From assembly GCF_001463885.1 (NCBI RefSeq), contig NZ_BBWQ01000001.1, positions 62,001 through 126,000 on the forward strand: a stretch of 64,000 bases of DNA, written 5' to 3'. The position numbers were made by a program, and so were the translations under genes. How positions within the stretch are numbered: position 1 is the stretch's first letter; each line of letters begins with the position of its first letter. This stretch comes from Aureimonas altamirensis (GTDB lineage: Bacteria; Pseudomonadota; Alphaproteobacteria; Rhizobiales; Rhizobiaceae). Shown one piece after another: positions 5,487-47,172 of the stretch. The notes under the pieces were generated by a model. It had not been told where the DNA came from. It did not search any database and was given only the letters and a program-made list of their open reading frames with translations.

Positions 5487-6121
5487 GAGGCGCAGCGCAA
5501 TGCCACCCTTTGACCGCCGATGATTTCCGTCGGCGTGTGGCCGCCCGTGGTGCGACCGGCGATGCGCCATCCCTTCAGGGAGATCACGTGCTGAACCCCG
5601 GGACCGAAGCGATGATCGGCGCTGCCGCCACGCGTGAAGCCGCCGTCCTGGTGCCGATTGTCGCACGGGCGGAAGAGGCGAGCATCCTTTTGACGACGCG
5701 CTCGGCCGCCTTGCGGAAGCATTCGGGGCAGATCGCCTTTCCGGGCGGCGCGGTGGACCCGGGTGATCAATCCGCCGAGGCCGCGGCGCTGCGCGAAGCC
5801 GAGGAAGAGATCGGGCTGACGGCGGATCATGTGGAAACGCTCGGCCGCCTGCCGTCCTATCTGTCCAGTACCGGTTATCGCATCGTACCGGTGCTTTCCA
5901 TCGTCAGGCCGGGCTTCGGCCTGAAGCTCAATCCGGATGAGGTGGACGACGCCTTCGAGGTGCCGCTGGCATTCCTGATGGATGCCGCCAACCATCGGCT
6001 GGAAAGCCGCGAGTGGCGCGGGGTGGCGCGCACCTTCTACACCATGCCCTTCGGGGATCGATACATTTGGGGCGTGACGGCGGGTATCCTCCGGTCGCTC
6101 TATGAAAGGTACTATGCATGA
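5483..6121 (+). CDS. CoA pyrophosphatase-type Nudix hydrolase
   Basis: The 212-residue protein carries a Nudix box at about residues 88-112 (GG, then E in SAEAAALREAEEEIG). Just before it is LLTTRSAALRKHSGQIAFPG, which resembles the NuCoA signature of CoA pyrophosphatases of the YeaB/NudL type. It would hydrolyse CoA or related nucleoside diphosphate compounds; substrate is inferred from the motif. Translation starts at a GTG that overlaps the DUF1285 stop (GTGA) and ends with a TGA overlapping the ATG of the next gene (ATGA). The three genes are therefore almost certainly co-transcribed and coupled. Confidence 0.88.
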   Translation: MRGAAQCHPLTADDFRRRVAARGATGDAPSLQGDHVLNPGTEAMIGAAATREAAVLVPIVARAEEASILLTTRSAALRKHSGQIAFPGGAVDPGDQSAEAAALREAEEEIGLTADHVETLGRLPSYLSSTGYRIVPVLSIVRPGFGLKLNPDEVDDAFEVPLAFLMDAANHRLESREWRGVARTFYTMPFGDRYIWGVTAGILRSLYERYYA

Positions 6122-7377
6122 CGAGCCTGACCGACGCCGCCTGGCTGCAGGATGTTGCCGTCCAGACCCTGTTGCGTGCTCTTGGGCAGGGAGAGGAGGA
6201 GGCCCGCGTGGTGGGGGGCGCGATCCGAAACCACTATCTCGGATATCCGATCACGGATGTCGACATCGCCACCACGACGCTCCCGCGCGAGACGATGCGC
6301 CTTGGCGCGGAGGCCGGCTTCAAGGCGGTGCCGACAGGCGTCGACCATGGCACCGTGACCCTGGTCCAGGGCGGGCGCGCCTTCGAGGTGACGACGCTGC
6401 GCCGCGATACCGAAAGCGACGGCCGCCACGCCAAGGTTGCCTTCGGACGCGACTGGAAGGTCGATGCCGAGCGGCGGGACTTCACCATAAACGCGCTCTA
6501 CGCGGATGCGGACGGTAAGGTCTACGATTACGTCGGCGGCCTTGCCGACCTGGAAGCCCAATCGCTGCGCTTCATCGGCGACGCGGAACTGCGGATCCGG
6601 GAAGATTATCTGCGCAGCCTGCGGTTTTTCCGGTTTTTCGCCTGGTACGGCAAGGGCCGGCCGGATGCCGAGGCCTTGCGCGCAACCGCGCGGTTGCGTG
6701 ACGGGCTGAAGACCCTATCGGCGGAGCGTGTCTGGGGTGAGATGAAGAAGCTCCTGTCGGCGCCCGATCCATCCCGCGCTTTGCTGTGGATGCGGCAGGC
6801 CGGCGTGCTGACGGCCGTGCTGCCGGAAACGGAAAAGTGGGGCATCGATACGATCCACCCGCTGGTGCAGGCCGAGCGCGACAATGTCTGGGATGCCGAC
6901 CCGATGCTGCGGCTGATGGCCATGATACCGCCGGACGGCGCCCGCGTAACCGAGATGGCGCGGCGGCTGCGCCTGTCCAATGCGGAGCGCAAGCGCCTTC
7001 AGGCCTTCGCGATGACCGCCACGGTGGCGGCCGATATGCCGGACGGCACCTGGCGGGCGACGCTGCAGGACGGCGACCGGCGGGCGCTGGCCGACCGGCT
7101 GCGCCTGGACATCGCGGTGGCAAGCCGGGAGCCCTCCGGGGACGTCGCGGCCGCACGGCTGCGATTGCTACATGCGTTGGAAACCTTCGAGCCGGCAGAG
7201 TTTCCGATCGATGGCGACGATGTGCAGGCCGCCGGCGTGCCGGCCGGCAAGGCCGTGGGGCAGGCGCTGGCGCGGCTGCGTCAACGATGGCTGGACAGCG
7301 GCCTGACGGCCGACCGCGAAACCCTTCTGCGGGATCTGAGGCAGGAGGCCCCGCGCGGAGAGGGGGCCGATCAATAA
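6118..7377 (+). CDS. cca: CCA tRNA nucleotidyltransferase
   Basis: This 419-residue protein adds or repairs the 3' CCA end of tRNA. It has the nucleotidyltransferase motif VVGGAIRN at residues 31-38 with catalytic aspartates in DVD (47-49), then RRDFTINALY, and IREDYLRSLRFFRFFAWYG in the helical region. These features and the length match alphaproteobacterial class II CCA-adding enzymes. The ATG overlaps the Nudix stop by 4 bp, so it is the third gene of the operon. A hairpin terminator follows immediately. Confidence 0.93.
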   Translation: MTSLTDAAWLQDVAVQTLLRALGQGEEEARVVGGAIRNHYLGYPITDVDIATTTLPRETMRLGAEAGFKAVPTGVDHGTVTLVQGGRAFEVTTLRRDTESDGRHAKVAFGRDWKVDAERRDFTINALYADADGKVYDYVGGLADLEAQSLRFIGDAELRIREDYLRSLRFFRFFAWYGKGRPDAEALRATARLRDGLKTLSAERVWGEMKKLLSAPDPSRALLWMRQAGVLTAVLPETEKWGIDTIHPLVQAERDNVWDADPMLRLMAMIPPDGARVTEMARRLRLSNAERKRLQAFAMTATVAADMPDGTWRATLQDGDRRALADRLRLDIAVASREPSGDVAAARLRLLHALETFEPAEFPIDGDDVQAAGVPAGKAVGQALARLRQRWLDSGLTADRETLLRDLRQEAPRGEGADQ

Positions 7378-7402
7378 AAAACGGGCCGCGAGGGCCCGTT
7401 TC
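7376..7402 (+). terminator. Rho-independent terminator after cca
   Basis: A run of A residues is followed by ACGGGCC (7381-7387), a 5-nt loop and GGCCCGT (7393-7399) running into TTT. This 7-bp stem directly after the cca stop is a plausible terminator for the DUF1285-Nudix-cca operon. The T tract is short, so efficiency is uncertain. Confidence 0.65.
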
Positions 7403-7448
7403 GACTTTCATCTGGGTCCGTGGACCTTGAGCCGAAGCTCCAGGCCGA

Positions 7449-7628
7449 TCAGTGGACGGGCATTTCGTGCACGTTCGTGCGGAAAGCGTCCATCATGATT
7501 GGCGTGATCGTGTCGACGCCGAGCTGCTTGGCTTGCACCACCGCCCGGCGGATCACTTCCGCCTGGCTCTCAGCCCGTATGACGCGATTACATCCGGGTA
7601 TGACACCTGCACAGTTGAGTTCGTACAT
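7449..7628 (-). CDS. DUF1059 family small protein
   Basis: A 59-residue protein starts at an ATG at 7628 with a GGGAGG ribosome site upstream. It begins MYELNCAGVIPGCNRVIRAE, followed by a helix with the register EVIRRAVVQAKQLG and ends with a His-rich tail NVHEMPVH. The spacing of two Cys residues (6 and 13) followed by an acidic helix fits the DUF1059 family of about 55-60 residues. Its function is unknown. It is a single-gene unit with an AT-rich upstream region. The opposite strand is also open here, but that reading has no family resemblance. Confidence 0.72.
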   Translation of the reverse strand: MYELNCAGVIPGCNRVIRAESQAEVIRRAVVQAKQLGVDTITPIMMDAFRTNVHEMPVH

Positions 7629-7635
7629 CTGGGCC

Positions 7636-7690
7636 TCCCATCGACTGACATTAATGTTTGATATATTTCGTGAAAGTCAATCGGAAGTTG
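7636..7690 (-). promoter_or_regulatory. Candidate promoter of the DUF1059 gene
   Basis: The region upstream of the DUF1059 ATG is clearly more AT-rich than its surroundings. Read on the minus strand it contains TTGACT with, about 17-18 nt further on, ACATTA/CATTAA close to the start codon. The match to a sigma-70 promoter is partial. No other feature was seen in the 110 bp between this gene and the PepSY gene. Confidence 0.3.
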
Positions 7691-7738
7691 AAGGTGTTCT
7701 CCGAAATTTAATCTTTTCAGGCTAAGGGCCGCCGCTCT

Positions 7739-8071
7739 TTAGCGGACAGCGATCACCGATCCGTCGCGCCGGTCGACATCGACCCGAATGTCGTCGCCAC
7801 GTCTGTCGATGCCTTCCACCCGATAGGCGGACCGTGTGCGGCTGACATCGTCGACCTCACGGAGGCCTTCGCCACGGGCGATGCGGACGGCTTCCCGCTC
7901 GCTGATCTCTCCGCGCGGCATGTCGCGGTCGCGCTGGCGGCCTTCGCTTTCGTTGGGGTTGACGACCCGGACCCCGTCGGGGCCGATCATGATACCCTGT
8001 GCCTGGGCAGGCAGTGCGGCTCCGCCAACGGCGCCGGCAACGAGTGCGGCTGCTAGAAGTGTCTTGAGCAT
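7739..8071 (-). CDS. Secreted PepSY-like domain protein
   Basis: The 110-residue product starts with a clear Sec signal peptide (MLKTLLAAALVAGAVGG, then AQAQ as the cleavage region near residue 24-26). The C-terminal 45 residues, starting at EISEREAVRIARGEG and ending DVDRRDGSVIAVR, look like a PepSY-type domain, a small fold common in periplasmic proteins. The start at 8071 was chosen over an upstream in-frame ATG because GGAGGA precedes it and it gives an intact signal peptide. Role unknown; it lies 40 bp downstream of the pseudouridine synthase gene. Confidence 0.75.
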   Translation of the reverse strand: MLKTLLAAALVAGAVGGAALPAQAQGIMIGPDGVRVVNPNESEGRQRDRDMPRGEISEREAVRIARGEGLREVDDVSRTRSAYRVEGIDRRGDDIRVDVDRRDGSVIAVR

Positions 8072-8111
8072 CTCAAATCCTCCGATCGATGCCATGTTTT
8101 TGATCGGAGTG

Positions 8112-8930
8112 TTAACCAAATGCCCGTTTTGCTGGTTCCTGCGGCAGGTGGGACGAATTGCCGCTCGTGAGCGTCGACAACTCCTCCGGCGTCAGAGGGC
8201 GCGCCGTGCCCTTGGGAAGATCGCCCAGCGCCAGGGGCCCGATTGCCACGCGCACCAGCCGAAGGACTTCCATGTCCAGCGCGGCCAGAAGCCGGCGTAT
8301 ATGCCGGTTGCGTCCTTCGTCCAGCACGATCTCCAGCCAGGCGTTGCGGGTGCCGCTTCGTAGAAGCCTTGCACCCGTGGCGCGCAGCAACTCGCCCTTG
8401 TCGACGATGCCTTCTGAAAGGCGCTGGCACAGGCCGGCGTCCGGCAGCCGATCGACCTGGACATGATAGGTCTTCTCCGGGCCTGTCCCGGGATCGAGCA
8501 GCCATTGCGAAAACCGCGTGTCGTTGGTCATGAGGATCAGGCCTTCGCTGGCCTTGTCGAGCCGGCCGACGGGCGAGACATGCGGCAGGCCAAGGCCGTC
8601 CAGGCAACGATAGATCGTGTCACGGCCTTCCGGATCGGACAGGGTGGTTACCAGTCCGCGCGGCTTGTTGACCATGAGGTAGATGGGCGCCTGGGCGGCA
8701 ACCGGCTGGCCGTCGAGCAGAATTTTCGCCCTGTCCATGTCGATGCGCATATCCGGCTGCTGCACGATCCTGCCGTCGACGGAGACGCGCCCCGCCCGGA
8801 TGAAGTCGTCCGCCGCCCCGCGTGAGGCGATGCCGAGCTTGGAAAAGACGCGGTTCAGGCTGACGCCGCCGGGCTTTGGCGGACGATGCGCCGAAGCGCC
8901 GGAACGTGCCGGTTTGTCCGATTTGCGCAT
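8112..8930 (-). CDS. RsuA/RluB/RluE/RluF family pseudouridine synthase
   Basis: The 272-residue protein has an N-terminal basic tail, an S4 RNA-binding domain at about residues 22-70, and the catalytic motif GRLDKASEGLILMTND with nucleophile Asp125. A second family motif, VLDEGRNRHIRRLL, follows. It isomerises uridine to pseudouridine in rRNA. The family covers RsuA (16S), RluB, RluE and RluF (23S), and sequence alone does not fix the target; RluB-like is most likely by length and S4 domain. It is a single gene on the minus strand, separated from tctA by a strong hairpin. Confidence 0.88.
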   Translation of the reverse strand: MRKSDKPARSGASAHRPPKPGGVSLNRVFSKLGIASRGAADDFIRAGRVSVDGRIVQQPDMRIDMDRAKILLDGQPVAAQAPIYLMVNKPRGLVTTLSDPEGRDTIYRCLDGLGLPHVSPVGRLDKASEGLILMTNDTRFSQWLLDPGTGPEKTYHVQVDRLPDAGLCQRLSEGIVDKGELLRATGARLLRSGTRNAWLEIVLDEGRNRHIRRLLAALDMEVLRLVRVAIGPLALGDLPKGTARPLTPEELSTLTSGNSSHLPQEPAKRAFG

Positions 8931-8949
8931 CGCATGGCCCTGAAACTAT

Positions 8950-8979
8950 GACGCGGGGCCGTGATAGCGGCCCCGCGTC
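8950..8979 (-). terminator. Hairpin terminator after tctA
   Basis: A perfect 12-bp inverted repeat GACGCGGGGCCG / CGGCCCCGCGTC with a 6-nt loop lies between the tctA stop and the pseudouridine synthase start. On the minus-strand transcript it is followed by ATAGTTTC rather than a full U tract. It probably ends or attenuates the tctCBA transcript. Confidence 0.65.
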
Positions 8980-8985
8980 TGCGTA

Positions 8986-10491
8986 TCAATCGTCCTCGAC
9001 GAAGACTTCCTTGCGCTTGTTGCGGATCGAGGGCAGCACCGCGAAGATCACGCAGGCAAGGCCGATCGCCAGCAGCGTTGCGGAGATGGGCCGCTCCAGG
9101 AAGATCATCGGATCGCCGCGCGAGATGATCATGGCCCGGCGCAGATGCTCTTCCAGGAGTGGGCCGAGCACGAAGCCCAGCAGCAGCGGCGCCGGCTCGC
9201 AGCCCAGCCGGATCAGCACGTAACCGAGGACGCCGAACAGAATGATGGCATAGACGTCGAACGGGTTGTTGTTGATCGAATAGCAGCCGATGGAGGCGAA
9301 CAGCACAATGGCCGGAAACAGGACCCGGTAGGGGATGGTCAGCATCTTCACCCACAGGCCGATGAGCGGCAGGTTGAGGATGACGAGGAGGATGTTGCCG
9401 ATCCACATCGAGGCGATGATGCCCCAGAACAATGCCGGCTGCGAGTTGATGACGTTCGGACCGGGGGTGATGCCCTGCAGGATGAACGCGCCGACGATGA
9501 GCGCCATCACCGGATGGGCCGGAATGCCGAGCGTCAGCAGCGGGATGAAGGAGGTCTGCGCCGCTGCATTGTTGGCGCTTTCGGGCCCGGCGACACCCTC
9601 GATGGCGCCGTGGCCGAACTCTTCCTTGTGCTTCGACAGGTTCTTTTCGGCCGAATAGGAGGCAAAGGAAGACAGGACGTGTCCGCCGCCCGGCAGGACG
9701 CCGAGAAGCGAGCCCAGCACCGTGCCGCGTATGACGGGCGCGATGATGCGCTTGAACTCGTCTTTCGTCAGCCAGAGGCTGGTGACCTTCTTGACCATGA
9801 CCTCGCGGCTGCGCTCGTTTTCGAGGTTGCGGAAGATTTCCGCGACGCCGAACACGCCGACCGCCACCGAGACGAAGTTGAGGCCTTGATAAAGCTCCAG
9901 GAAGCCGAAGGTGAAGCGCGGCGTGCCGGTGTAGATGTCCTGCCCGACCGTGCCCAGAAGCAGGCCCAGGATGATCATCCCGAGCGCCTTGGTGACGGAG
10001 CCGTGGGCGAGCGAGATGGACACCAGCAAGCCGAGTACGATGAGCGCGAAATATTCCGGCGCGCCGAAATTGAGCGCGATGCGCGCCAGCGGCGGCGCGG
10101 CGATGGCCAGTAGCAGCGTCGCCACGGAGCCGGCGAAGAAGGAGCCGAGCGCCGCCGTGGCGAGCGCCGCGCCCGCCCTGCCTTTCTTGGCCATCTGGTA
10201 GCCGTCGATGGCTGTGACAGCAGACGAGCTTTCGCCCGGCAGGTTGATCAGGATGGCCGTGGTGGAGCCGCCGTACTGCGCGCCGTAATAGATGCCCGAC
10301 AGCATGATGAGCGCCGTGACCGGCGAGAAGGTGAAGGTGATCGGCAAGAGCATGGCGATGGTTGCCGTGGGCCCGATGCCGGGCAGCACGCCGACCAGGG
10401 TGCCGAGGAGCACGCCAATGAAGCACCAGAAGATGTTGATGGGCGTGAGCGCCGTTTCGAAGCCGAGCGCCAGATTCGCGATAAGGTCCAT
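8986..10491 (-). CDS. tctA: Tripartite tricarboxylate transporter large permease TctA
   Basis: This is a 501-residue integral membrane protein of the TctA family with about 10-12 membrane segments. Hallmarks are GVLPGIGPTATIAMLLPITF near residues 39-58, YYGAQYGGSTTAILINLPGE, and the repeated GVLPGGGHVLSSFASYSAEK around residue 265. It forms the channel of an ion-driven uptake system for carboxylates with TctB and the binding protein TctC. It is third in the operon tctC-tctB-tctA, 16 bp after tctB. The substrate cannot be read from sequence. Confidence 0.93.
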   Translation of the reverse strand: MDLIANLALGFETALTPINIFWCFIGVLLGTLVGVLPGIGPTATIAMLLPITFTFSPVTALIMLSGIYYGAQYGGSTTAILINLPGESSSAVTAIDGYQMAKKGRAGAALATAALGSFFAGSVATLLLAIAAPPLARIALNFGAPEYFALIVLGLLVSISLAHGSVTKALGMIILGLLLGTVGQDIYTGTPRFTFGFLELYQGLNFVSVAVGVFGVAEIFRNLENERSREVMVKKVTSLWLTKDEFKRIIAPVIRGTVLGSLLGVLPGGGHVLSSFASYSAEKNLSKHKEEFGHGAIEGVAGPESANNAAAQTSFIPLLTLGIPAHPVMALIVGAFILQGITPGPNVINSQPALFWGIIASMWIGNILLVILNLPLIGLWVKMLTIPYRVLFPAIVLFASIGCYSINNNPFDVYAIILFGVLGYVLIRLGCEPAPLLLGFVLGPLLEEHLRRAMIISRGDPMIFLERPISATLLAIGLACVIFAVLPSIRNKRKEVFVEDD

Positions 10492-10507
10492 GAATCGTCT
10501 CCGCGCG

Positions 10508-10978
10508 TCAGAACGAGAGGGCCGGCCCGAAGGTGGGCAGGGTGATGCCGAGTCCGACCTTGAAGATCAGGTAGCAGAGCGCCGACATGCAGGCGGCCAT
10601 GATGAGCGCCGATACGATGTTGTTGTTCCGCGAGGCCATCGCGGACAGGAAGGTGCACAGCGCCACGATGGGCACCAGACCGAGCGAGCGTGCGGCATAG
10701 CCGAAGATCGCCAGCGACAGGCAGACCAGGAAGATGCCCCGCCAGGCGATGGGCTCTGCCTGGACTTCCTGATGCCGGCCGAAGCCCTGCACCGCGATCA
10801 GAATGCCGAACCCGGCCAGAAGACAGGCCAGGAACAGCGGCATGAAGCCGGGCCCCATGCGCAGCGCCGTCCCCATCTGGTAGTTCATCGCCTCGACCGC
10901 GAAGCCGGCGGCGATGGCGATGAAGATGAGACCTGCGAAAACGTCGCGCCAGGCTCGAGAGCGTGTAATGTCCGTCAT
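10508..10978 (-). CDS. tctB: Tripartite tricarboxylate transporter small subunit TctB
   Basis: The 156-residue protein has four predicted membrane segments, starting with WRDVFAGLIFIAIAAGFAVE, and the motif GTALRMGPGFMPLFLACLL typical of TctB subunits. It pairs with TctA in the inner membrane. The start at 10978 was preferred over an upstream in-frame start because GGGGGAA precedes it and family members begin here. It sits between tctC (58 bp, with a hairpin) and tctA (16 bp). Confidence 0.88.
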   Translation of the reverse strand: MTDITRSRAWRDVFAGLIFIAIAAGFAVEAMNYQMGTALRMGPGFMPLFLACLLAGFGILIAVQGFGRHQEVQAEPIAWRGIFLVCLSLAIFGYAARSLGLVPIVALCTFLSAMASRNNNIVSALIMAACMSALCYLIFKVGLGITLPTFGPALSF

Positions 10979-10995
10979 GTTTCCCCCGTAACGGA

Positions 10996-11026
10996 AAAGC
11001 CGGCCGCGTATGCCGCGGCCGGCTTT
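10996..11026 (-). terminator. Intercistronic hairpin between tctC and tctB
   Basis: A perfect 12-bp inverted repeat AAAGCCGGCCGC / GCGGCCGGCTTT with a 7-nt loop lies just after the tctC stop and ends in TTTT on the transcript strand. It looks like a partial terminator or an RNA-stabilising hairpin that would raise binding protein output relative to the permeases. Similar hairpins follow chvE, sbp and fbpA in this window. Confidence 0.65.
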
Positions 11027-11036
11027 CGAACGCACA

Positions 11037-12020
11037 TCAGTCGGCGTAGACGCCGGCTTCCTCGATGATCGGTTTCCACAGGGCGATCTGCGAGGTGAGT
11101 TCCTGGGTCAGGGCGGCGGGTGTCGCCTGATCCTGCGATACGGGCGCGGTGCCGAGTTCGGCGAAGCGCTGGATGACCGTCTGGTCCTGCAGCGCCGTCT
11201 GCAGCGCGGCTTCCAGCTTTTCGACGATGGCGGGGTCCATGTCCTTCGGGCCATAGAGGCCGTGCCAGACGCCGATCTGCAGGCGCGGCAGGTTGGATTC
11301 GGCCGTCGTCGGCAGGTCCGGGAGGGAGTCGACGCGCGCGGGCGAGGTGACGGCATAGGCCTTCACTTCGCCGGCCTTGATCTGGTTGGTGGTATTGGTG
11401 GTCTGGTCGCAGATCATGTCGACCTGTCCGCCGACGATGTCCGTCATCGCCGGGCCGGCGCCCTGGTAGGGCACGGTGATCATCTGGACTTCCAGGGAAT
11501 CCATCAGCAGCATGCCGCACAGGTGCGATGCCGAGCCGATGCCGGCATTGGCGTAGGTGACGTCCTCGCCGTTTTCCTTGAGGTAGGAGACAAGGCCCGC
11601 CATGTCGGTCGGCTCGAAATCCTTGCGGGCGACGATCGTCATGGGAACCGACGTGATGAGCCCGACGGGCGTGAAATCGGTGAGGGGATCGAAGCCGAGA
11701 TTGCGGTAAAGGGTCGGCGCGGTGGACATGCCGATATGGTGCAGCAGCAGCGTGTAGCCGTCATTCGATGCATTGGCCACCTGTCCGGCGCCGAGCGTGC
11801 CGCCGGCCCCGCCGACATTCTGGATCAGCACCTGCTGCCCCAGTTCCTTCGACATGACTTGGGCGACCAGCCGGGCAACGGTATCCGTCGGCCCACCGGC
11901 CGAGAAGGGCACGATGATCGTGACCGGCTGGGTGGGATAGTCGGTCTGCGCCATGGCGGCCATCGGTGCCGTGAAGGCGAGCGCGGCGGATACGGCAAAT
12001 GCCGCGAGGCTGAGTTTCAT
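11037..12020 (-). CDS. tctC: TctC/Bug family periplasmic binding protein
   Basis: The 327-residue protein starts with a signal peptide ending AAMAQ (about residue 25), followed by YPTQPVTIIVPFSAGGPTDTVARLV, the N-terminal signature of the Bug family (shown here as YPTQPVTIIV and PFSAGGPTDT). It binds a carboxylated solute in the periplasm for the TctAB permease. The start at 12020 has AGGAT before it and gives a clean signal peptide, whereas the upstream extension does not. The gene follows the GntR regulator on the same strand with a 113-bp gap containing an inverted repeat, so it may have its own regulated promoter. The ligand is unknown. Confidence 0.9.
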   Translation of the reverse strand: MKLSLAAFAVSAALAFTAPMAAMAQTDYPTQPVTIIVPFSAGGPTDTVARLVAQVMSKELGQQVLIQNVGGAGGTLGAGQVANASNDGYTLLLHHIGMSTAPTLYRNLGFDPLTDFTPVGLITSVPMTIVARKDFEPTDMAGLVSYLKENGEDVTYANAGIGSASHLCGMLLMDSLEVQMITVPYQGAGPAMTDIVGGQVDMICDQTTNTTNQIKAGEVKAYAVTSPARVDSLPDLPTTAESNLPRLQIGVWHGLYGPKDMDPAIVEKLEAALQTALQDQTVIQRFAELGTAPVSQDQATPAALTQELTSQIALWKPIIEEAGVYAD

Positions 12021-12133: not shown

Positions 12134-12892
12134 TTATGACTGAGCGTTCGTCAGCGGCATATCCGCGTGCAGGGCGGTCATCGTGCGATCGACCCCGACA
12201 TGGATGACGTTCTCCATGGCAAGCCGGGCGGCTGACTCGTCGCGGGCGGCGATGGCACGCACGATGCGCAGGTGGTTTCCCGCGCATTCGGCGATCTTCT
12301 CGGTGCTCGACGCCGGCGAGGATAGCTGGAAGGAAGCCGCCAGCGCGGCTTCTATCAGCGCGCTGATCGAGCGCATGAACGGATTGCGCGACACGCGCGC
12401 CACCGCAAGGTGGAATTCCAGATCCACCTTGGCGATGCTTTCGCGCGTGTGGGCCGGGTTATCCAGCCGGCCGGCGATCTCGTAAAGTTCAACGATCTCC
12501 TCGGCGCTCGCACGCCGTGCGGCCATGGCGGCGGCGGCGGGCTCGAGCGCCAGCCGCATCTCGGCCAGATCGGCGATCAGCGTGTCGTCGACGCCAGACT
12601 CGAAGCGCCAGCCCAGAACGTCCGCATCGAAGAAATTCCATTGCGACCGGTTGAGCACCCGCGTTCCCACCTTGGCCTTGGGCTCGACGAGCCGTTTGGC
12701 GGCCAGCGTCTTCATCGCTTCACGCAGGACGGTGCGCGATACGCCGAAACGCGCGCTCAGCTCGGCGTCGCCCGGCAGGAGGGAGCCCTCGGGCCGGGCG
12801 CCGGTGACGATTTCGCGGCCGAGAACCATGACGACCTGGGCATGGCTGGTGCGCAGAGACCGGCCCGCGATGGTCGATTGCAACAGACTCAT
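12134..12892 (-). CDS. FadR-type GntR transcriptional regulator
   Basis: The 252-residue protein has a GntR winged helix at about residues 12-80 (ELSARFGVSRTVLREAMKTL) and a C-terminal FCD domain. Putative metal ligands are the Asp and His of DLEFHLAVARVSRNPF and the His of GNHLRIVRAI. FCD regulators bind sugar acids or other carboxylates as effectors. The gene lies divergent from the galactose oxidation operon and directly upstream of tctC, so it may control either or both. By analogy with DgoR-type regulators a galactonate-like effector is plausible; this is inference from position. Confidence 0.88.
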   Translation of the reverse strand: MSLLQSTIAGRSLRTSHAQVVMVLGREIVTGARPEGSLLPGDAELSARFGVSRTVLREAMKTLAAKRLVEPKAKVGTRVLNRSQWNFFDADVLGWRFESGVDDTLIADLAEMRLALEPAAAAMAARRASAEEIVELYEIAGRLDNPAHTRESIAKVDLEFHLAVARVSRNPFMRSISALIEAALAASFQLSSPASSTEKIAECAGNHLRIVRAIAARDESAARLAMENVIHVGVDRTMTALHADMPLTNAQS

Positions 12893-17796: not shown

Positions 17797-18708
17797 ATGG
17801 GCGTCCGAAAGCTTCTGGTGGATTGGGGAACGACGAGCTTCCGCCTCTGGGCGGTGGGCGCCGACGACGGCATCATGGGCGAGCGGCGCAGCGGCGAAGG
17901 CCTGACCAGCGCCGGCGATTTCGATGCCGTGCTGGAATCCCACGCGACCGCGCTGGGCGTCGGCAGCGACGTGCCCGCCATCCTGTGCGGCATGGTAGGT
18001 GCACGCAACGGCTGGCTTGAAGCGCCCTATCTCGATGCGCCGGTGCCGTTGAGCGACGTGGCGGGGCGCGCAACCCGCGTCACGAAGGCCAGCCGCGCCG
18101 TCTTCATACTGCCCGGTGTCTGCCAACGGCGTCCTGCCCCGGATGTCATGCGCGGCGAGGAGACCAAGCTTCTCGGACTCGGGCGCGATGACGGGCTGGT
18201 GCTCATGCCGGGCACGCATACCAAATGGGCGCGGCTGGACGGCGGGTTGCTGGCCGGGTTTTCCACCTTCATGACGGGCGAGATCTTCGCGCACTTACGC
18301 GGCGCGCCGACATCGGTGCTGCGGCAGGCCGTGGGCGAAGCGCCCCTTGTGCAGACATCCGGCCCGGTATTCGCCGATGCCGTGCGGATGGGCTTCGAGG
18401 CGCCCGAGCGGCTGGCCAATGCCGCCTTCGGCGTGCGCGCCGGCTGGCTTATCGATGGCACCCCCGCGGCGGATGGGCTTGCACGCCTGTCGGGGCTGCT
18501 GATCGGGGCCGAAATCGCCGGTGCGCGGACGCTGTACGGAGACCTCGACGGGGTCGTTCCGCTGGGTGCCGGGCCCGGTGCGCAGGCCTATCTGGATGCG
18601 CTGGCCGCACTCGACATCGCCCATGCGCCACCGGTGGACGCCGATGGCTGCGTGCGTGCCGGGCTGTCGCGGGCGGCCGATATCCTATTGCAGGAGATAC
18701 AGTCATGA
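17797..18708 (+). CDS. dgoK: 2-dehydro-3-deoxygalactonokinase
   Basis: The 303-residue protein shows the N-terminal nucleotide loop VDWGTTSFRLWAV, GEGLTSAGDF, CGMVGARNGWLEAPYL and the MRGEETKLLGL and PGTHTKWARL motifs of DgoK. It phosphorylates 2-keto-3-deoxygalactonate with ATP. The ATG at 17797 follows the lactonase stop by 11 bp; the frame is open further upstream but lacks conservation there. Its stop overlaps the dgoA start (ATGA), so the kinase and aldolase are probably made together. Confidence 0.92.
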   Translation: MGVRKLLVDWGTTSFRLWAVGADDGIMGERRSGEGLTSAGDFDAVLESHATALGVGSDVPAILCGMVGARNGWLEAPYLDAPVPLSDVAGRATRVTKASRAVFILPGVCQRRPAPDVMRGEETKLLGLGRDDGLVLMPGTHTKWARLDGGLLAGFSTFMTGEIFAHLRGAPTSVLRQAVGEAPLVQTSGPVFADAVRMGFEAPERLANAAFGVRAGWLIDGTPAADGLARLSGLLIGAEIAGARTLYGDLDGVVPLGAGPGAQAYLDALAALDIAHAPPVDADGCVRAGLSRAADILLQEIQS

Positions 18709-19349
18709 GTGGTTCCGAGCGCGTTGCCTGGCCTTCCTTCCGACGTTCGCTGGTGGCGATCCTGCGCGGCATCACCATCGACGAGGTGGAGCCGGTCGTC
18801 GACGCACTCGTGGAAGCCGGCTTCGAGGCCATCGAGATCCCGTTGAATTCGCCGGCTCCGTTCCGGTCCATCGAGGCGGCGGTGCGCCTTGCACCGCAGA
18901 CCCACTATGTGGGCGCCGGCACCGTCCTGAGCGTCGAGGATGTCGACAGGCTGGCGCATGTGGGCGGGCGGCTGATGGTCAGCCCCAATGTGGACCCGGC
19001 CGTCATCGCACGGGCGGCAGAGCAGGGAATGGTGACGATGCCGGGCGTGTTTACGCCCACCGAAGCCCTGGCAGCCTGGCATGCAGGGGCCGTGGCGCTG
19101 AAGTTCTTTCCGGCCAGCGTGCTTGGCCCCGCCGGTATCGCGGCGATTTCGGCGGTGCTGCCGAAAGAGGCGGTCCTGGGGGCGGTCGGCGGTGTTTCGG
19201 AAGGCGATTTTTCGGCCTATGCCGGCTACGGCATCAGGGCGTTCGGCCTCGGCTCGAGCCTCTACAAGCCCGGCCTGTCGACGGCCGAGGTGGCGGCTCG
19301 GGCCAAGGCGGCCATAACCGCCTACGACGCGGTATTCGGCACCGGCTAG
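18705..19349 (+). CDS. dgoA: 2-dehydro-3-deoxy-6-phosphogalactonate aldolase
   Basis: The 214-residue class I aldolase of the KDPG/KDPGal family has Glu44 in EAIEIPLNSP, the GAGTVLS motif, and the Schiff-base Lys133 in ALKFFPAS. The PLNSP motif is typical of KDPGal rather than KDPG aldolases. It cleaves 6-phospho-2-keto-3-deoxygalactonate to pyruvate and glyceraldehyde 3-phosphate, completing the De Ley-Doudoroff route. The ATG overlaps the dgoK stop. The short 30-bp repeat array starts 11 bp after its stop. Confidence 0.92.
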   Translation: MSGSERVAWPSFRRSLVAILRGITIDEVEPVVDALVEAGFEAIEIPLNSPAPFRSIEAAVRLAPQTHYVGAGTVLSVEDVDRLAHVGGRLMVSPNVDPAVIARAAEQGMVTMPGVFTPTEALAAWHAGAVALKFFPASVLGPAGIAAISAVLPKEAVLGAVGGVSEGDFSAYAGYGIRAFGLGSSLYKPGLSTAEVAARAKAAITAYDAVFGTG

Positions 19350-19360
19350 GCCGGGGCCCG

Positions 19361-19450
19361 CATGGCGGGGAGCCATGCAGAACGACTTCGCATGGCGAGG
19401 AGCCATGCAGCATGATTTGACATGGCAGGGAGCCATGCCGAACGACTAGC
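19361..19450. repeat. Three 30-bp tandem repeats with hairpins between dgoA and chvE
   Basis: Three units of exactly 30 bp start at 19361, 19391 and 19421. Each opens with CATGGC-N5-GCCATG, a perfect 6-bp stem with a purine loop (GGGGA, GAGGA, AGGGA), and continues with a less conserved tail (GCAGAACGACTT, GCAGCATGATTT, GCCGAACGACTA). The stems do not vary while loops and tails do, which points to selection on structure. Each loop and 3' stem also resembles a ribosome site followed by an ATG. A fourth, smaller hairpin CCGCA-TGG-TGCGG follows at 19454-19466, just before the real chvE ribosome site. No known element was recognised. Confidence 0.85.
19375..19449 (+). other. Possible 24-residue peptide across the repeats (doubtful)
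   Basis: Because the unit length is a multiple of three, an ATG at 19375 opens a 24-codon frame ending at TAG 19447-19449, with purine-rich GGGGAG just upstream. The product repeats a decapeptide of the type MQNDFAWRGA, then [10 protein letters not shown], then MPND. Other frames also stay open through part of the array, so the frame may be a by-product of the repeat. It could act as a leader peptide for chvE, but nothing shows that it is translated. Confidence 0.15.
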
Positions 19451-19487
19451 GGTCCGCATGGTGCGGCTGCCTGGGGAGGATTTCGCA

Positions 19488-20549
19488 ATGAGGACTTTCG
19501 TGAAATGGGCCGCCGCGCTTGCCCTCGGGGCGGCGATGGTGCTGCCGGCCAGCGCGCAGGACAAGGGCCTCGTCGGCATCGCCATGCCGACGAAGTCGTC
19601 GGCACGGTGGATCGACGACGGCAACAACATGTCGAAGACCCTGCAGGAGCGCGGTTACGAGACCGACCTGCAATACGCCGAGGACGACATCCCCAACCAG
19701 CTCTCGCAGGTCGAGAACATGGTGGTGAAGGGCTCCAAGGTGCTGGTGATCGCGTCGATCGACGGCACCACGCTTTCCGACGTGCTGCAGCAGGCCGCCG
19801 ACATGGACGTGAAGACGATCGCCTACGACCGGCTGATCCGCGATACGCCCAATGTCGACTATTACGCCACGTTCGACAATTTCCAGGTCGGCGTCCTGCA
19901 GGCCACTTCCATCGTCGACAGCCTGGACCTCGCCAACCAGGCGGGACCGTTCAACATCGAGCTGTTCGGCGGCTCGCCGGACGACAACAACGCCTACTTC
20001 TTCTATGACGGCGCCATGAGCGTTCTGCAGCCCTATATCGACAGCGGCAAGCTGGTCGTCGGCTCGGGCCAGACGGGAATGGCCCAGGTTTCCACGCTGC
20101 GCTGGGACCCGGCCGTGGCGCAGGCCCGCATGGACAACATCCTGTCCGCCTTCTACCCCGACAAGCGCGTCGATGCCGTGCTGTCGCCCTATGACGGCCT
20201 GTCGATCGGTATCCTGTCTTCGCTGAAGGGCGTCGGCTACGGATCGGCCGACATGAAGATGCCGGTCGTGACCGGGCAGGATGCCGAGGTGCAGTCGATC
20301 AAGTCGATCCTGGCCGGGGAACAGACCTCGACCATCTTCAAGGACACGCGCGAACTGGCCCGCGTGACGGCCGACATGGTGGATGCTGTCATCAACGGCA
20401 CCGAACCGCAGGTCAACGATACCGAGACCTACAATAACGGCGTCAAGGTCGTTCCGTCCTACCTGTTGAAGCCGGTCGTGGTGACCAAGGACAACTGGAA
20501 GGAAATACTGGTCGACAGCGGCTACTACACCGAAGCCCAACTCCAGTAG
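19488..20549 (+). CDS. chvE: ChvE-type multiple sugar-binding periplasmic protein
   Basis: The 353-residue protein has a signal peptide ending VLPASAQ (about residue 23) and is ChvE-like throughout, for example [20 protein letters not shown] (exactly the N-terminal sugar-site region), [20 protein letters not shown] and [12 protein letters not shown]. ChvE binds galactose, arabinose, glucose and related sugars; in Agrobacterium it also signals to VirA. No virA is present here, so uptake is the likely role. The start at 19488 has GGGGAGGA in front; the frame continues upstream through the third 30-bp repeat but without a signal peptide. Confidence 0.93.
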
Positions 20550-20579: not shown

Positions 20580-20616
20580 TTCGTCTGCGGTATCGTCACG
20601 GCCGTTGGAGGCGCAC

Positions 20617-22149
20617 ATGAACGCCATTCTGGAAATGCGGGGCATCTCCAAGTCCTTCACCGGGGTCAAGGCCCTTTCCGAAGTGAACCTTGCGGTGCAG
20701 CCCGCCGAAATCCATGCCGTCGTCGGCGAAAACGGCGCCGGCAAGTCTACCTTGATGAAGGTGCTGTCCGGCGTCTATCCGCATGGCAGCTACGATGGGC
20801 AGATCCTTTTCGAGGGCGAGGAGCGCAGCTTCCGCACGGTGAACGATTCCGAGGCGCTCGGCATCATCATCATCCATCAGGAGCTTGCCCTCATCCCCCT
20901 GATGTCGATTGCCGAAAACATATTTCTCGGCAATGCGCCGACGCGGATGGGCGTCATCGACCGGTCGGCCGTCTTCGAGCGTTCCCGCGAGCTGCTGCGC
21001 AAGGTTGGCCTGAAGGAGAATCCCGATACGAAGATCGCCGATCTCGGCGTCGGCAAGCAGCAATTGGTGGAGATCGCCAAGGCGCTGTCGAAGGAAGTGA
21101 AGCTGCTCATCCTCGACGAGCCGACGGCCAGCCTCAACGAAGCCGATTCCGATGCGCTGCTTGCGCTTCTGACTGAGTTCCGGCGCCAGGGCATCTCCTC
21201 GATCCTGATCTCGCACAAGCTGAACGAGATCTCCAAGGTGGCCGACCGCATCACTGTGCTGCGCGATGGCAAGACCGTCGCCACCATGGATTGCCATGCC
21301 GGCCCGGTCGAGGAAGACGAGATCATCCGCAAGATGGTGGATCGCGACCTGGAAAGCCGCTTCCCCAAGCGCGAACCGAAGATCGGCGAGACAATCCTGT
21401 CCATCCGCGACTGGTCGGTGGAGGACCCGCTCCACCCGGGACGGCAGGCCGTGAAGAGCCTCAGCCTCGACCTGCGCGCCGGCGAAATCCTCGGCATTGC
21501 GGGGCTGATGGGGGCAGGGCGCACGGAATTCGCCATGAGCGTCTTCGGCCGCTCGTGGGGGCGCAACATCCGGGGCACCGTCACCATGCACGGCAAGCCG
21601 GTGGACCTGTCCACCGTGCCCGCCGCCATTCGTGCCGGGCTTGCCTATGTGACGGAAGACCGCAAGCAGCTTGGCCTGCTTCTGGACGAGGATATCCGCA
21701 AGAACATTTCGCTTGCCCATCTTGCCGGCGTGTCGCGCCGCGGCGTGCTGGACGACATCCAGGAGCTGCAGGTCGCCAATACCTATCGCCAGAAGATGCG
21801 TATCCGGTCTTCCAGCGTGTACCAGGAGACCGGCAAGCTGTCGGGCGGCAACCAGCAGAAGGTTGTCCTGTCGAAATGGCTCTTCTCGGAGCCGGAAGTG
21901 CTCATCCTCGACGAGCCGACGCGCGGCATCGACGTCGGGGCAAAGTATGAAATCTATTCCATCATCAACAGCCTGGCCGACAGCGGCAAGGGAGTGATCG
22001 TGATCTCGTCCGAGATGCCGGAACTGCTGGGTATCTGCGACCGCATCCTCGTGATGAACGAGGGCAGCTTCGTCGGCGCCTTCACCCGCGAAGAGGCCAG
22101 CCAGGAAAAGATCATGCGCGCCATCATGCGCAAGGAGACCCTGAAATGA
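20617..22149 (+). CDS. gguA: Sugar ABC transporter ATPase GguA
   Basis: The 510-residue protein contains two ABC domains. The first has a Walker [10 protein letters not shown] at residues 37-45; the second has the degenerate GLMGAGRTE and the signature [14 protein letters not shown], the usual arrangement in monosaccharide importers. It drives ChvE-dependent sugar uptake with GguB. ATG 20617 was chosen because GGAGG lies 5 nt upstream; a TTG 12 bp earlier is less likely. The stop overlaps gguB (ATGA). Confidence 0.93.
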
Positions 22150-23333
22150 GCGACAATCCGGCAACCATCGGGGAAACGCGCAGCTATAGCGGTTTCCTGA
22201 AAAACAACCTGCGCGAATATGGAATGCTGCTGTCGCTGCTGGCGATCATGATCTTCTTTCAGGTCATGACCGACGGCACGCTGATGCGGCCGCTGAACCT
22301 GACCAACCTGATCCTGCAGAACAGCTACATCGTCATCATGGCGCTCGGCATGCTTCTGGTGATCGTATCGGGCCATATCGACCTTTCGGTCGGCTCCGTC
22401 GCCGGCTTCGTCGGCGCGGTGGCAGCCGTGCTGATGGTCAAGCTTGGCGTGCCCGCCATCGCGGCCGTCGCCATCTGCCTTGCCATCGGCGCCGCCATCG
22501 GGGCGGCGCAGGGCTGGTTCGTCGCCTACCTGCGCATCCCGTCCTTCATTGTCACGCTGGCGGGGATGCTGGTGTTCAAGGGGCTCAGCCTCGCCGTTCT
22601 CGGCGGCGCATCGGTTGGCCCGTTTCCCACCACCTTCCAGCGCCTGTCGTCCGGCTTCATCCCCGACGTCTTCGCGACGCCGGGCCTGAAGCTGACATCG
22701 CTGATCCTCGGCACCGTGCTGGCGCTGGGGCTGGTCTACCTCAACTTCCGCAACAGGGCGCGCCAGCAGCGCCACCAGACCGAAACGGAGCCCTATGGCT
22801 TCTTCGTCCTGAAGAACATCGTGCTCTTTTCCGTCGTCACCTATTTCACCTACCTTCTCGCATCGCTGCGCGGGCTTCCCAATGTACTGATCATCATGGT
22901 GGCGCTGATCGCGCTCTATGCCTTCCTTGCCAACCGCACCACCATCGGCCGGCAGATCTATGCCGTCGGCGGCAACGAGAAGGCGGCGAAGCTTTCGGGC
23001 GTCATGACCGAGCGTCTGACCTTCCTGACCTTCGTCAACATGGGTATCCTGGCGGCGCTGGCCGGCCTCATCTTCGCCGCGCGGTTGAACACGGCGACGC
23101 CGAAGGCCGGTCTCGGCTTCGAGCTGGACGTCATCGCCGCCTGCTTCATCGGCGGCGCGTCGGCCTATGGCGGTGTCGGCAAGGTGGTGGGCGCGGTGAT
23201 CGGCGCCTTCATCATGGGCGTCATGAACAACGGCATGTCCATCCTGGGTATCGGCATCGATTACCAGCAGGTCATCAAGGGCATCGTGCTGCTGGGGGCC
23301 GTCTGCATCGATGTCTACAACCAGCGCCGTTGA
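22146..23333 (+). CDS. gguB: Sugar ABC transporter permease GguB
   Basis: The 395-residue integral membrane protein has around ten hydrophobic segments and family motifs [28 protein letters not shown] and [24 protein letters not shown] (quoted as [16 protein letters not shown]). It matches GguB, the single permease of the ChvE-GguAB importer, which presumably works as a dimer. It starts inside the gguA stop. In Agrobacterium gguC follows gguB; here the next gene is purU, so gguC is missing at this place. Confidence 0.93.
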
Positions 23334-46494: not shown

Positions 46495-47172
46495 CTATCG
46501 GCGGTCGCCGCGCTCCTGGCCCGGCCCGTGCGGGCGGTGGTGGTGCGGGCCCTTGCCATGGCGGCCGGGGCGGGGAAGCTCACGCAGAAGGCGCTCGGCC
46601 GTTGCGGTCTGCTCCGGTGTCAATTCGCCGGCAAGCTGCGCCATCGCGGTGCGCAGCGTCTCGGCTGCCTGTCCACGGGTGATGCTGCGTTCCAGCATCC
46701 TGTCCACCCGCGCGAAGGGGCGGCTGTCGGGTAGCGTCGGAGCTGCCTCCTCGACGTCGTCCGCCTCGGTCGAGGCATCGTCGTCCGATGCCGGGCCGGC
46801 CTCGTCTTCATCGTCCTGCGCGGCCACATCCGGGCCGCCGCGCGCCGGGCGCCCGGCTTCCACGAAGCCGATTGCGGCGCGAGTGAAGGCGTTCCAGCTA
46901 TCCTGCTGATCGGCGGTTATTCCGAGCGCCGTTTCCGCCGCGGTCAGCCGCGAGGCGACATCCCACAGCATCGACGGGCGGTCGGGTCTTTCGCCGCGCA
47001 TCATGCGGCCCGGGCCGCCCGGTCCGCCGGGGCCGTGCGGCGGGCCCTTGGCGTCCTGTCCGACGGCGGCCGGCGGCGGCGGCGGGGGTGCCGGCTGTGC
47101 CGTCTGCGCCAGTGCCGGAAGCGCGATGCCCGTGGCCAACAGGCCGGCCAGTAGTTTCGACGATGTCTTCAT
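46495..47172 (-). CDS. Spy/CpxP-like periplasmic protein with acidic insert
   Basis: The 225-residue protein has a signal peptide ending PALAQ, a Pro/Gly-rich stretch, and two LTxxQ-type helices (LGITADQQDSWNAF and AGELTPEQTATAERLLREL), the mark of Spy/CpxP periplasmic chaperones. Between them is a strongly acidic segment (DDEDEAGPASDDDASTEADD). The C-terminus is rich in His and Pro, a possible metal-binding tail. It diverges from an OmpR/EnvZ-like pair, as CpxP does from CpxRA, suggesting regulation by it. Confidence 0.8.
   Translation of the reverse strand: MKTSSKLLAGLLATGIALPALAQTAQPAPPPPPPAAVGQDAKGPPHGPGGPGGPGRMMRGERPDRPSMLWDVASRLTAAETALGITADQQDSWNAFTRAAIGFVEAGRPARGGPDVAAQDDEDEAGPASDDDASTEADDVEEAAPTLPDSRPFARVDRMLERSITRGQAAETLRTAMAQLAGELTPEQTATAERLLRELPRPGRHGKGPHHHRPHGPGQERGDRR

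Follow-up and report, generated by a model that had tools for sequence, protein, structure and literature searches.

The window analysed here is a stretch of 64,000 nucleotides of the Aureimonas altamirensis genome (contig NZ_BBWQ01000001.1, positions 62,001 to 126,000), and coordinates are those of the window unless a contig or locus is named. Genes for an IlvD/Edd-family dehydratase and an SMP-30/gluconolactonase lie on the same strand as dgoK, dgoA, chvE, gguA and gguB, the last three encoding the ChvE-GguAB transporter (Table 1). Near these sugar genes there is also a gene for a GntR/FCD-type regulator (positions 12134-12892), a candidate regulator of the cluster. The spacer between dgoA and chvE is 138 nt long, running from the dgoA stop codon (19349) to the chvE ATG (19488). 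A simple scan of positions 19000-19600 on either strand gave no match to a terminator or to a sigma70-like promoter, bearing in mind that a scan of this kind may miss alphaproteobacterial promoters, and there was no intrinsic terminator (i.e. a G+C-rich hairpin followed by a run of T) in this interval. Since neither kind of signal was matched there, read-through from dgoA into chvE fits the locus.

The spacer contains a tandem array of three 30-bp units (19359-19448), each comprising a hairpin followed by a linker. The palindrome CATGGC-N5-GCCATG is found at 19361-19377, 19391-19407 and 19421-19437 with a spacing of exactly 30 bp, and the loops GGGGA, GAGGA and AGGGA, in that order, are all purine; the preliminary description of this DNA had both the coordinates and the letters right. 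It had also said that the array fills the gap between the two genes. The array is indeed located between dgoA and chvE, but takes up only ~90 of the 138 nt, and a second hairpin, CCGCATGGTGCGG, that adjoins the chvE Shine-Dalgarno (SD) sequence had been missed. TRF reports the array as 19359-19447 with a period of 30, 3.0 copies and no indels, the top score among seven rows in the window. A very GC-rich tandem repeat of 36 bp, present in two copies, was found elsewhere in the window (47007-47079).

Allowing up to one mismatch, the palindrome has five matches in the window compared with 0.65 expected, and none of 100 shuffles reaches five. A lone palindrome of this form is common, with at least one exact match in 67 of the 101 genomes searched; within the genome that holds the window the array accounts for three of the four exact matches (one strand counted). 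The unusual feature is the tandem arrangement with all-purine loops, not the single palindrome. In a longer fold (19359-19418) unit 1 pairs with unit 2 via both stems, such that the purine loops face each other in an internal loop. This mutual pairing is an alternative to the formation of separate local hairpins.

Table 1. Coordinates of the genes, array units and leader elements of the dgoA-chvE region, and of the candidate small RNA.
Feature	Position	Strand	Evidence and remarks
dgoA, 2-dehydro-3-deoxy-6-phosphogalactonate aldolase (upstream gene)	18690..19349	+	NF006600 279 bits, cut-off 207
Array unit 1, GCATGGC-GGGGA-GCCATGC + linker	19359..19388	+	covariance model R1 49.2 bits; alone folds at -12.0 kcal/mol
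Array unit 2, GCATGGC-GAGGA-GCCATGC + linker	19389..19418	+	covariance model R1 42.4 bits; -12.0 kcal/mol
Array unit 3, CATGGC-AGGGA-GCCATG + linker	19419..19448	+	covariance model R1 43.9 bits; -7.8 kcal/mol
Small conserved hairpin CCGCATGGTGCGG, upstream of chvE SD	19454..19466	+	-5.3 kcal/mol
chvE SD region GGGGAGG	19473..19479	+	best predicted AbcR-like sRNA site
chvE, sugar-binding protein of ChvE-GguAB transporter (downstream gene)	19488..20549	+	NF040907 566.8 bits, cut-off 460
gguA + gguB, ATPase + permease of ChvE-GguAB transporter	20605..23333	+	NF040905 859.2 bits (cut-off 810), NF040906 578.1 bits (cut-off 450)
AbcR-like sRNA, copy of this genome	G000:C11:95910-96018 (= L182:1501-1609)		blastn; other loci L177, L179, L183-L194

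The array is present in three of the 21 Aureimonas genomes searched, always before chvE. A count of units in related spacers, which the preliminary description had proposed, gives five in G005, three in our genome (G000) and two in G012 (A. altamirensis A31, with a ChvE 95% identical to ours), but none in the nearby species G014 and G017 (A. fodinaquatilis, 87% identical); the corresponding spacer lengths are 199, 138, 110, 88 and 86 nt. The lack of an array in G014 and G017 speaks against an essential role. A DNA search of the 21 genomes with positions 19340-19500 gave strong matches in the same three genomes, with the next best at E 0.007. A covariance model of the unit found ten units, all at chvE of G000, G005 and G012 (E ≤1.9e-7), with scoring applied to the best 150 of ~5,500-11,500 first-look candidates in each genome. 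Its other matches had E values of at least 4.4e-4 and are taken as chance; the flanks of seven of these weaker matches, viewed in part, held no array, and none was seen in the other Aureimonas chvE leaders examined. A dispersed repeat of the REP/BIME type was rejected, there being no comparable match outside chvE in the 21 genomes among the best 150 candidates scored in each.

The small hairpin CCGCATGGTGCGG has a wider distribution. It is kept in G000, G005, G012 and G017, and in G014 with one outer base changed, i.e. in more species than the array and including two that lack it. Its core GCATGGTGCG is found in 7 of 216 chvE leaders, corresponding to five Aureimonas species with two counted twice. 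Of the hairpin elements in this leader it is the older.

The stems had been described as invariant. This is true within our genome, but across species they vary. In an alignment of the ten units standard pairs make up 97.1% of the stem cells, and a change on both sides is seen in two pairs (GCGTGGC/GCCACGC in unit 2 of G005 and CACGGC/GCCGTG in unit 2 of G012). Unit 3 of our array is orthologous to the last units of G005 and G012, with which it has a common flank, and one pair of this unit is U-A in G000, U.G in G005 and C-G in G012. Relative to the consensus, substitutions are found in 5/120 cells of the inner stem, 3/20 of the outer pair and 3/50 of the loop, compared with 24/108 of the linker; the difference between inner stem plus loop and linker has p = 1.3e-5 when cells are counted and 0.017-0.030 when minimal changes are counted. 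At least two double changes would arise among five random transitions with a probability of 0.0009. Against a maintained stem, all inner pairs stay standard in 3.9% of random-transition trials, and 33 of 500 shuffles match the observed number of double changes. In the last unit and its tail 4 to 5 of 50 positions differ; for dgoA and chvE the divergence at fourfold sites is 0.10-0.28. The signs of the strand point both ways. Two wobble cases agree with the plus strand, whereas an inherited A-C outer pair, seen in unit 3 of G000 and unit 2 of G012, could form a wobble on the minus strand and not on the plus strand. Relative to shuffles the minus strand has the better fold (z = -4.08, compared with z = -2.56 for the plus strand).

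Because the linker is more variable than stem and loop, and because of the two double changes and the U-A, U.G, C-G series, a maintained hairpin is favoured. The stem is thus probably maintained as a structure, although the sample is small and the pattern could be mimicked by template switching. Template switching at palindromes can perfect them, yielding compensated changes without selection. The likeness of the units may also stem from recent duplication or homogenization. The preliminary description had taken a random expansion with varying stems as a sign of no function. The copy number does vary and two species lack the array, but the changes in the stems are compatible with pairing. Overall a hairpin array kept as a structure before chvE is moderately supported in three species and absent from two, while the suggestions of CsrA binding and ribosome loading are not supported.

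Ribosome loading had been suggested by the resemblance of each loop, with its adjacent ATG, to the chvE start region. In each unit GGAG ends just 2 nt before the ATG, the ATG itself belongs to the 3′ arm of the stem, and reading frames starting from the unit ATGs encode different peptides in the three species. For these reasons start-site mimicry, or loading of ribosomes at the individual units, is unlikely. A coding repeat or upstream ORF was likewise rejected since the peptides and frames that follow GGAGCCATG differ between G000, G005 and G012, and a conserved peptide from the array is unlikely. A frame of 24 codons encoding a repeated peptide (19375-19449) does span the array, and is not kept in G005 or G012. 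Searching positions 19200-19600 with Rfam 15 gave nothing at the gathering cut-off (nine matches at E up to 10, the best at E 0.48). Searches of the literature on Aureimonas tandem repeats, and on tandem hairpins, anti-Shine-Dalgarno sequences, small RNAs and leaders, gave no description of the 30-bp unit among the matches listed.

Hairpins with purine loops are also found before chvE in other bacteria. The Rhizobium-group leader L079 contains the look-alike GGGCGGC-GAGGA-GCCGCCC, and hairpins with the core GGC-GAGGA-GCC precede chvE in L079, L085, L089 and L090, all of the Rhizobium group. Early counts pointed to an enrichment of purine loops. In a set of 102 leaders 21 loops were all purine, none all pyrimidine and 54 mixed; 8 of the 21 belong to the array clade, in which one species is represented twice. 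In a set of 80 named loci with naive gene calls, purine loops accounted for 8 of 18 hairpins at chvE (40 leaders) and 2 of 94 at other genes (166 leaders). A set of 216 leaders (180 without near-duplicates) gave 25 purine, 1 pyrimidine and 68 mixed loops, 7 of the 25 being from the array clade; the corresponding values were 1.8, 0.8 and 27 for shuffles, and 6, 2 and 131 for the stretch after the chvE stop codon. When Rhizobiaceae were drawn evenly and the array clade was left out, purine-loop hairpins were found in 6/115 chvE leaders and 3/124 control leaders (p = 0.32). The controls were purU (1/55; 55 of 70 loci usable, 15 dropped) and xylF (2/69; 70 of 70 usable, 69 after removal of near-duplicates). 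The purine share of hairpins was 8/59 for chvE and 4/84 for controls (p = 0.07). A looser count based on the minimum-energy fold gave 20/115 and 8/124 (p = 0.009, uncorrected for relatedness or multiple tests), for which start codons were script-assigned and some matches may be real SD sequences. Because the early leader sets lean on the closest ChvE relatives, and the even sample gives p = 0.32, we make no claim of a purine-loop rule and treat the pattern as a lead; the family-wide control survey does not support such hairpins as a feature shared by chvE leaders in general.

A small RNA had been suggested as a partner of the array, and a candidate exists. With the A. altamirensis copy as query, blastn found an AbcR-like sRNA in 15 of the 21 Aureimonas genomes. 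The loci carry the anti-SD motifs ACCUCCUCCC (14/15) and GUUUCCUCCC (15/15). In our genome a LysR-type gene precedes the sRNA, and an aspartate-transaminase-like gene (model score 558.7 bits, below the cut-off of 617) follows on the other strand. The S. meliloti AbcR carries CUCCUCCC and UUCCCCUC and adjoins the LysR gene lsrB (PMC8844928). The Rfam family ar15 scored 26-29 bits in three of five sRNA loci and suhB (of the ar15 clan) 29 bits in one of five, both below gathering and with unrelated families scoring as high; ar15 had no match in our genome at the default threshold. Because these scores stay under the cut-off, the AbcR-like assignment rests on neighbourhood and motifs.

In a simple pairing calculation the best predicted site for this sRNA is the chvE SD in five of five species (6-8 bp, -9.6 to -10.1 kcal/mol), two of which have no array. 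Predicted pairing at the array loops is weaker (5-6 bp, -3.8 to -7.3 kcal/mol), and the sRNA motifs have better complements than the loops. Most array loops should open at almost no cost, except those in the last units of G000 and G005 (~3 kcal/mol). Pairing at the loops was thus rejected as the main mechanism, and the small RNA, a possible partner, has its best predicted site outside the array. The sRNA could act at the chvE SD with or without the array, and the loops could add weak docking sites. This leaves a reading in which the sRNA makes kissing contacts with the purine loops through its C/U-rich loop, and is thereby recruited to, or diverted from, the chvE SD. Besides the two anti-SD motifs, the LysR neighbour and the ease of opening, it draws on published accounts in which chvE is a named target of AbcR1 in Agrobacterium, dysregulated in an abcR1 mutant (PMC7486931), and two contiguous AbcR sites are suggested for the S. 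meliloti prbA leader (PMC8844928). Set against the preference for the SD we consider it unlikely. A little less probable again is the fuller proposal that the units are copy-variable kissing-loop sites in cis for an AbcR-type anti-Shine-Dalgarno sRNA, with gain and loss of repeats tuning the action of the sRNA on ChvE.

The other alternatives differ widely in likelihood. The array might have no function, being a neutral minisatellite that arose by duplication of a 30-bp palindrome-bearing stretch in a spacer that tolerates it, with a drifting copy number and with stems kept alike by slippage and template switching. Copy numbers of 3, 5, 2 and 0 in close relatives, the closeness of the three array species (fourfold divergence 0.10-0.28) and a covariation that is modest relative to shuffles are all consistent with this, whereas the uneven variation along the unit, the double changes and the series of pairs in the orthologous last unit argue against it. 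We regard the neutral reading as a serious possibility, nearly as likely as a functional RNA element. If the palindromes were instead DNA operators, each would bind a dimeric regulator of an internal chvE promoter. Perfect 17-bp palindromes at regular 30-bp spacing would suit such a role, and the GntR/FCD-type gene lies in the window, but a fixed operator would not be expected to pass through a U.G intermediate or to change on both sides, there are relatives without the array, and the scan for sigma70-like promoters (which may miss those of alphaproteobacteria) was negative; we think this improbable. Read on the minus strand the loops become UCCCC, UCCUC and UCCCU, i.e. a small RNA with several anti-SD loops resembling cuckoo or NfeR1, the latter having three anti-SD motifs (PMC8844928). 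The stronger fold of that strand is in keeping with this, yet neither promoter nor terminator was matched on either strand of 19000-19600 and Rfam gave nothing at gathering level or at E below 0.48, so that we hold a minus-strand RNA to be very improbable. Binding of CsrA/RsmA, as put forward in the preliminary description from the GGA in every loop, has practically no likelihood. Pfam family PF02599 matches none of the 21 Aureimonas genomes, while the control search did detect it in E. coli, B. subtilis and T. maritima, three of the 14 control genomes; this exclusion reaches as far as Pfam.

Our tentative preference, to which we would give somewhat less than an even chance, is that the array is a copy-variable, lineage-specific set of hairpins tuning mRNA decay or processing in the A. 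altamirensis group. The genes dgoA-chvE-gguAB would form one transcription unit, with cotranscription of dgoA and chvE suggested by the gene order. Slippage would add and remove units, with the stem being retained as RNA on the plus strand. Each hairpin could slow exonucleases or shield a processed 5′ end, and the array would in this way contribute to the balance between DgoA and ChvE-GguAB. Anti-SD sRNAs of the AbcR type may find additional weak sites in the purine loops. The decay step is proposed by analogy with structured operon segments; a survey in E. coli places protective mRNA structures mostly within coding regions (PMC5927463). If functional, the array would be an RNA-hairpin minisatellite with 0, 2, 3 or 5 units in close relatives before a sugar-uptake gene, and would thus offer a natural dose series for asking whether hairpin number tunes the stoichiometry of the operon or its control by small RNAs. 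A neutral array would be an ordinary minisatellite.

Several known systems resemble parts of this locus. Cuckoo (CcsR) is an sRNA with repeated short hairpins that have SD- or anti-SD-like loops. Read on the minus strand, the array would share repeated short anti-SD-loop hairpins with cuckoo and NfeR1; by contrast the scan of 19000-19600 gave no sign of a minus-strand transcription unit at the array. REP/BIME-type repeats are also palindromes repeated between genes, but the array occupies a single locus in each of three genomes (best 150 candidates per genome scored). The chvE leader is like the leaders targeted by AbcR (Rfam ar15), in that chvE is an AbcR1 target in Agrobacterium (PMC7486931) and the purine motifs of the array can pair with anti-SD seeds. 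It differs in that the best predicted site here is the SD, while the additional sites are in repeated hairpin loops with 5-6 bp only. The malE-malF REP sequences and the puf operon provide intercistronic hairpins that shape the decay of operon mRNA. Like these, the array places stable stem-loops between genes whose products the cell probably requires in unequal amounts. It differs from them in having short tandem units of variable copy number at a single locus, with all-purine loops, and in being known from sequence. The array thus adds a new, copy-variable example to an already known kind of element.
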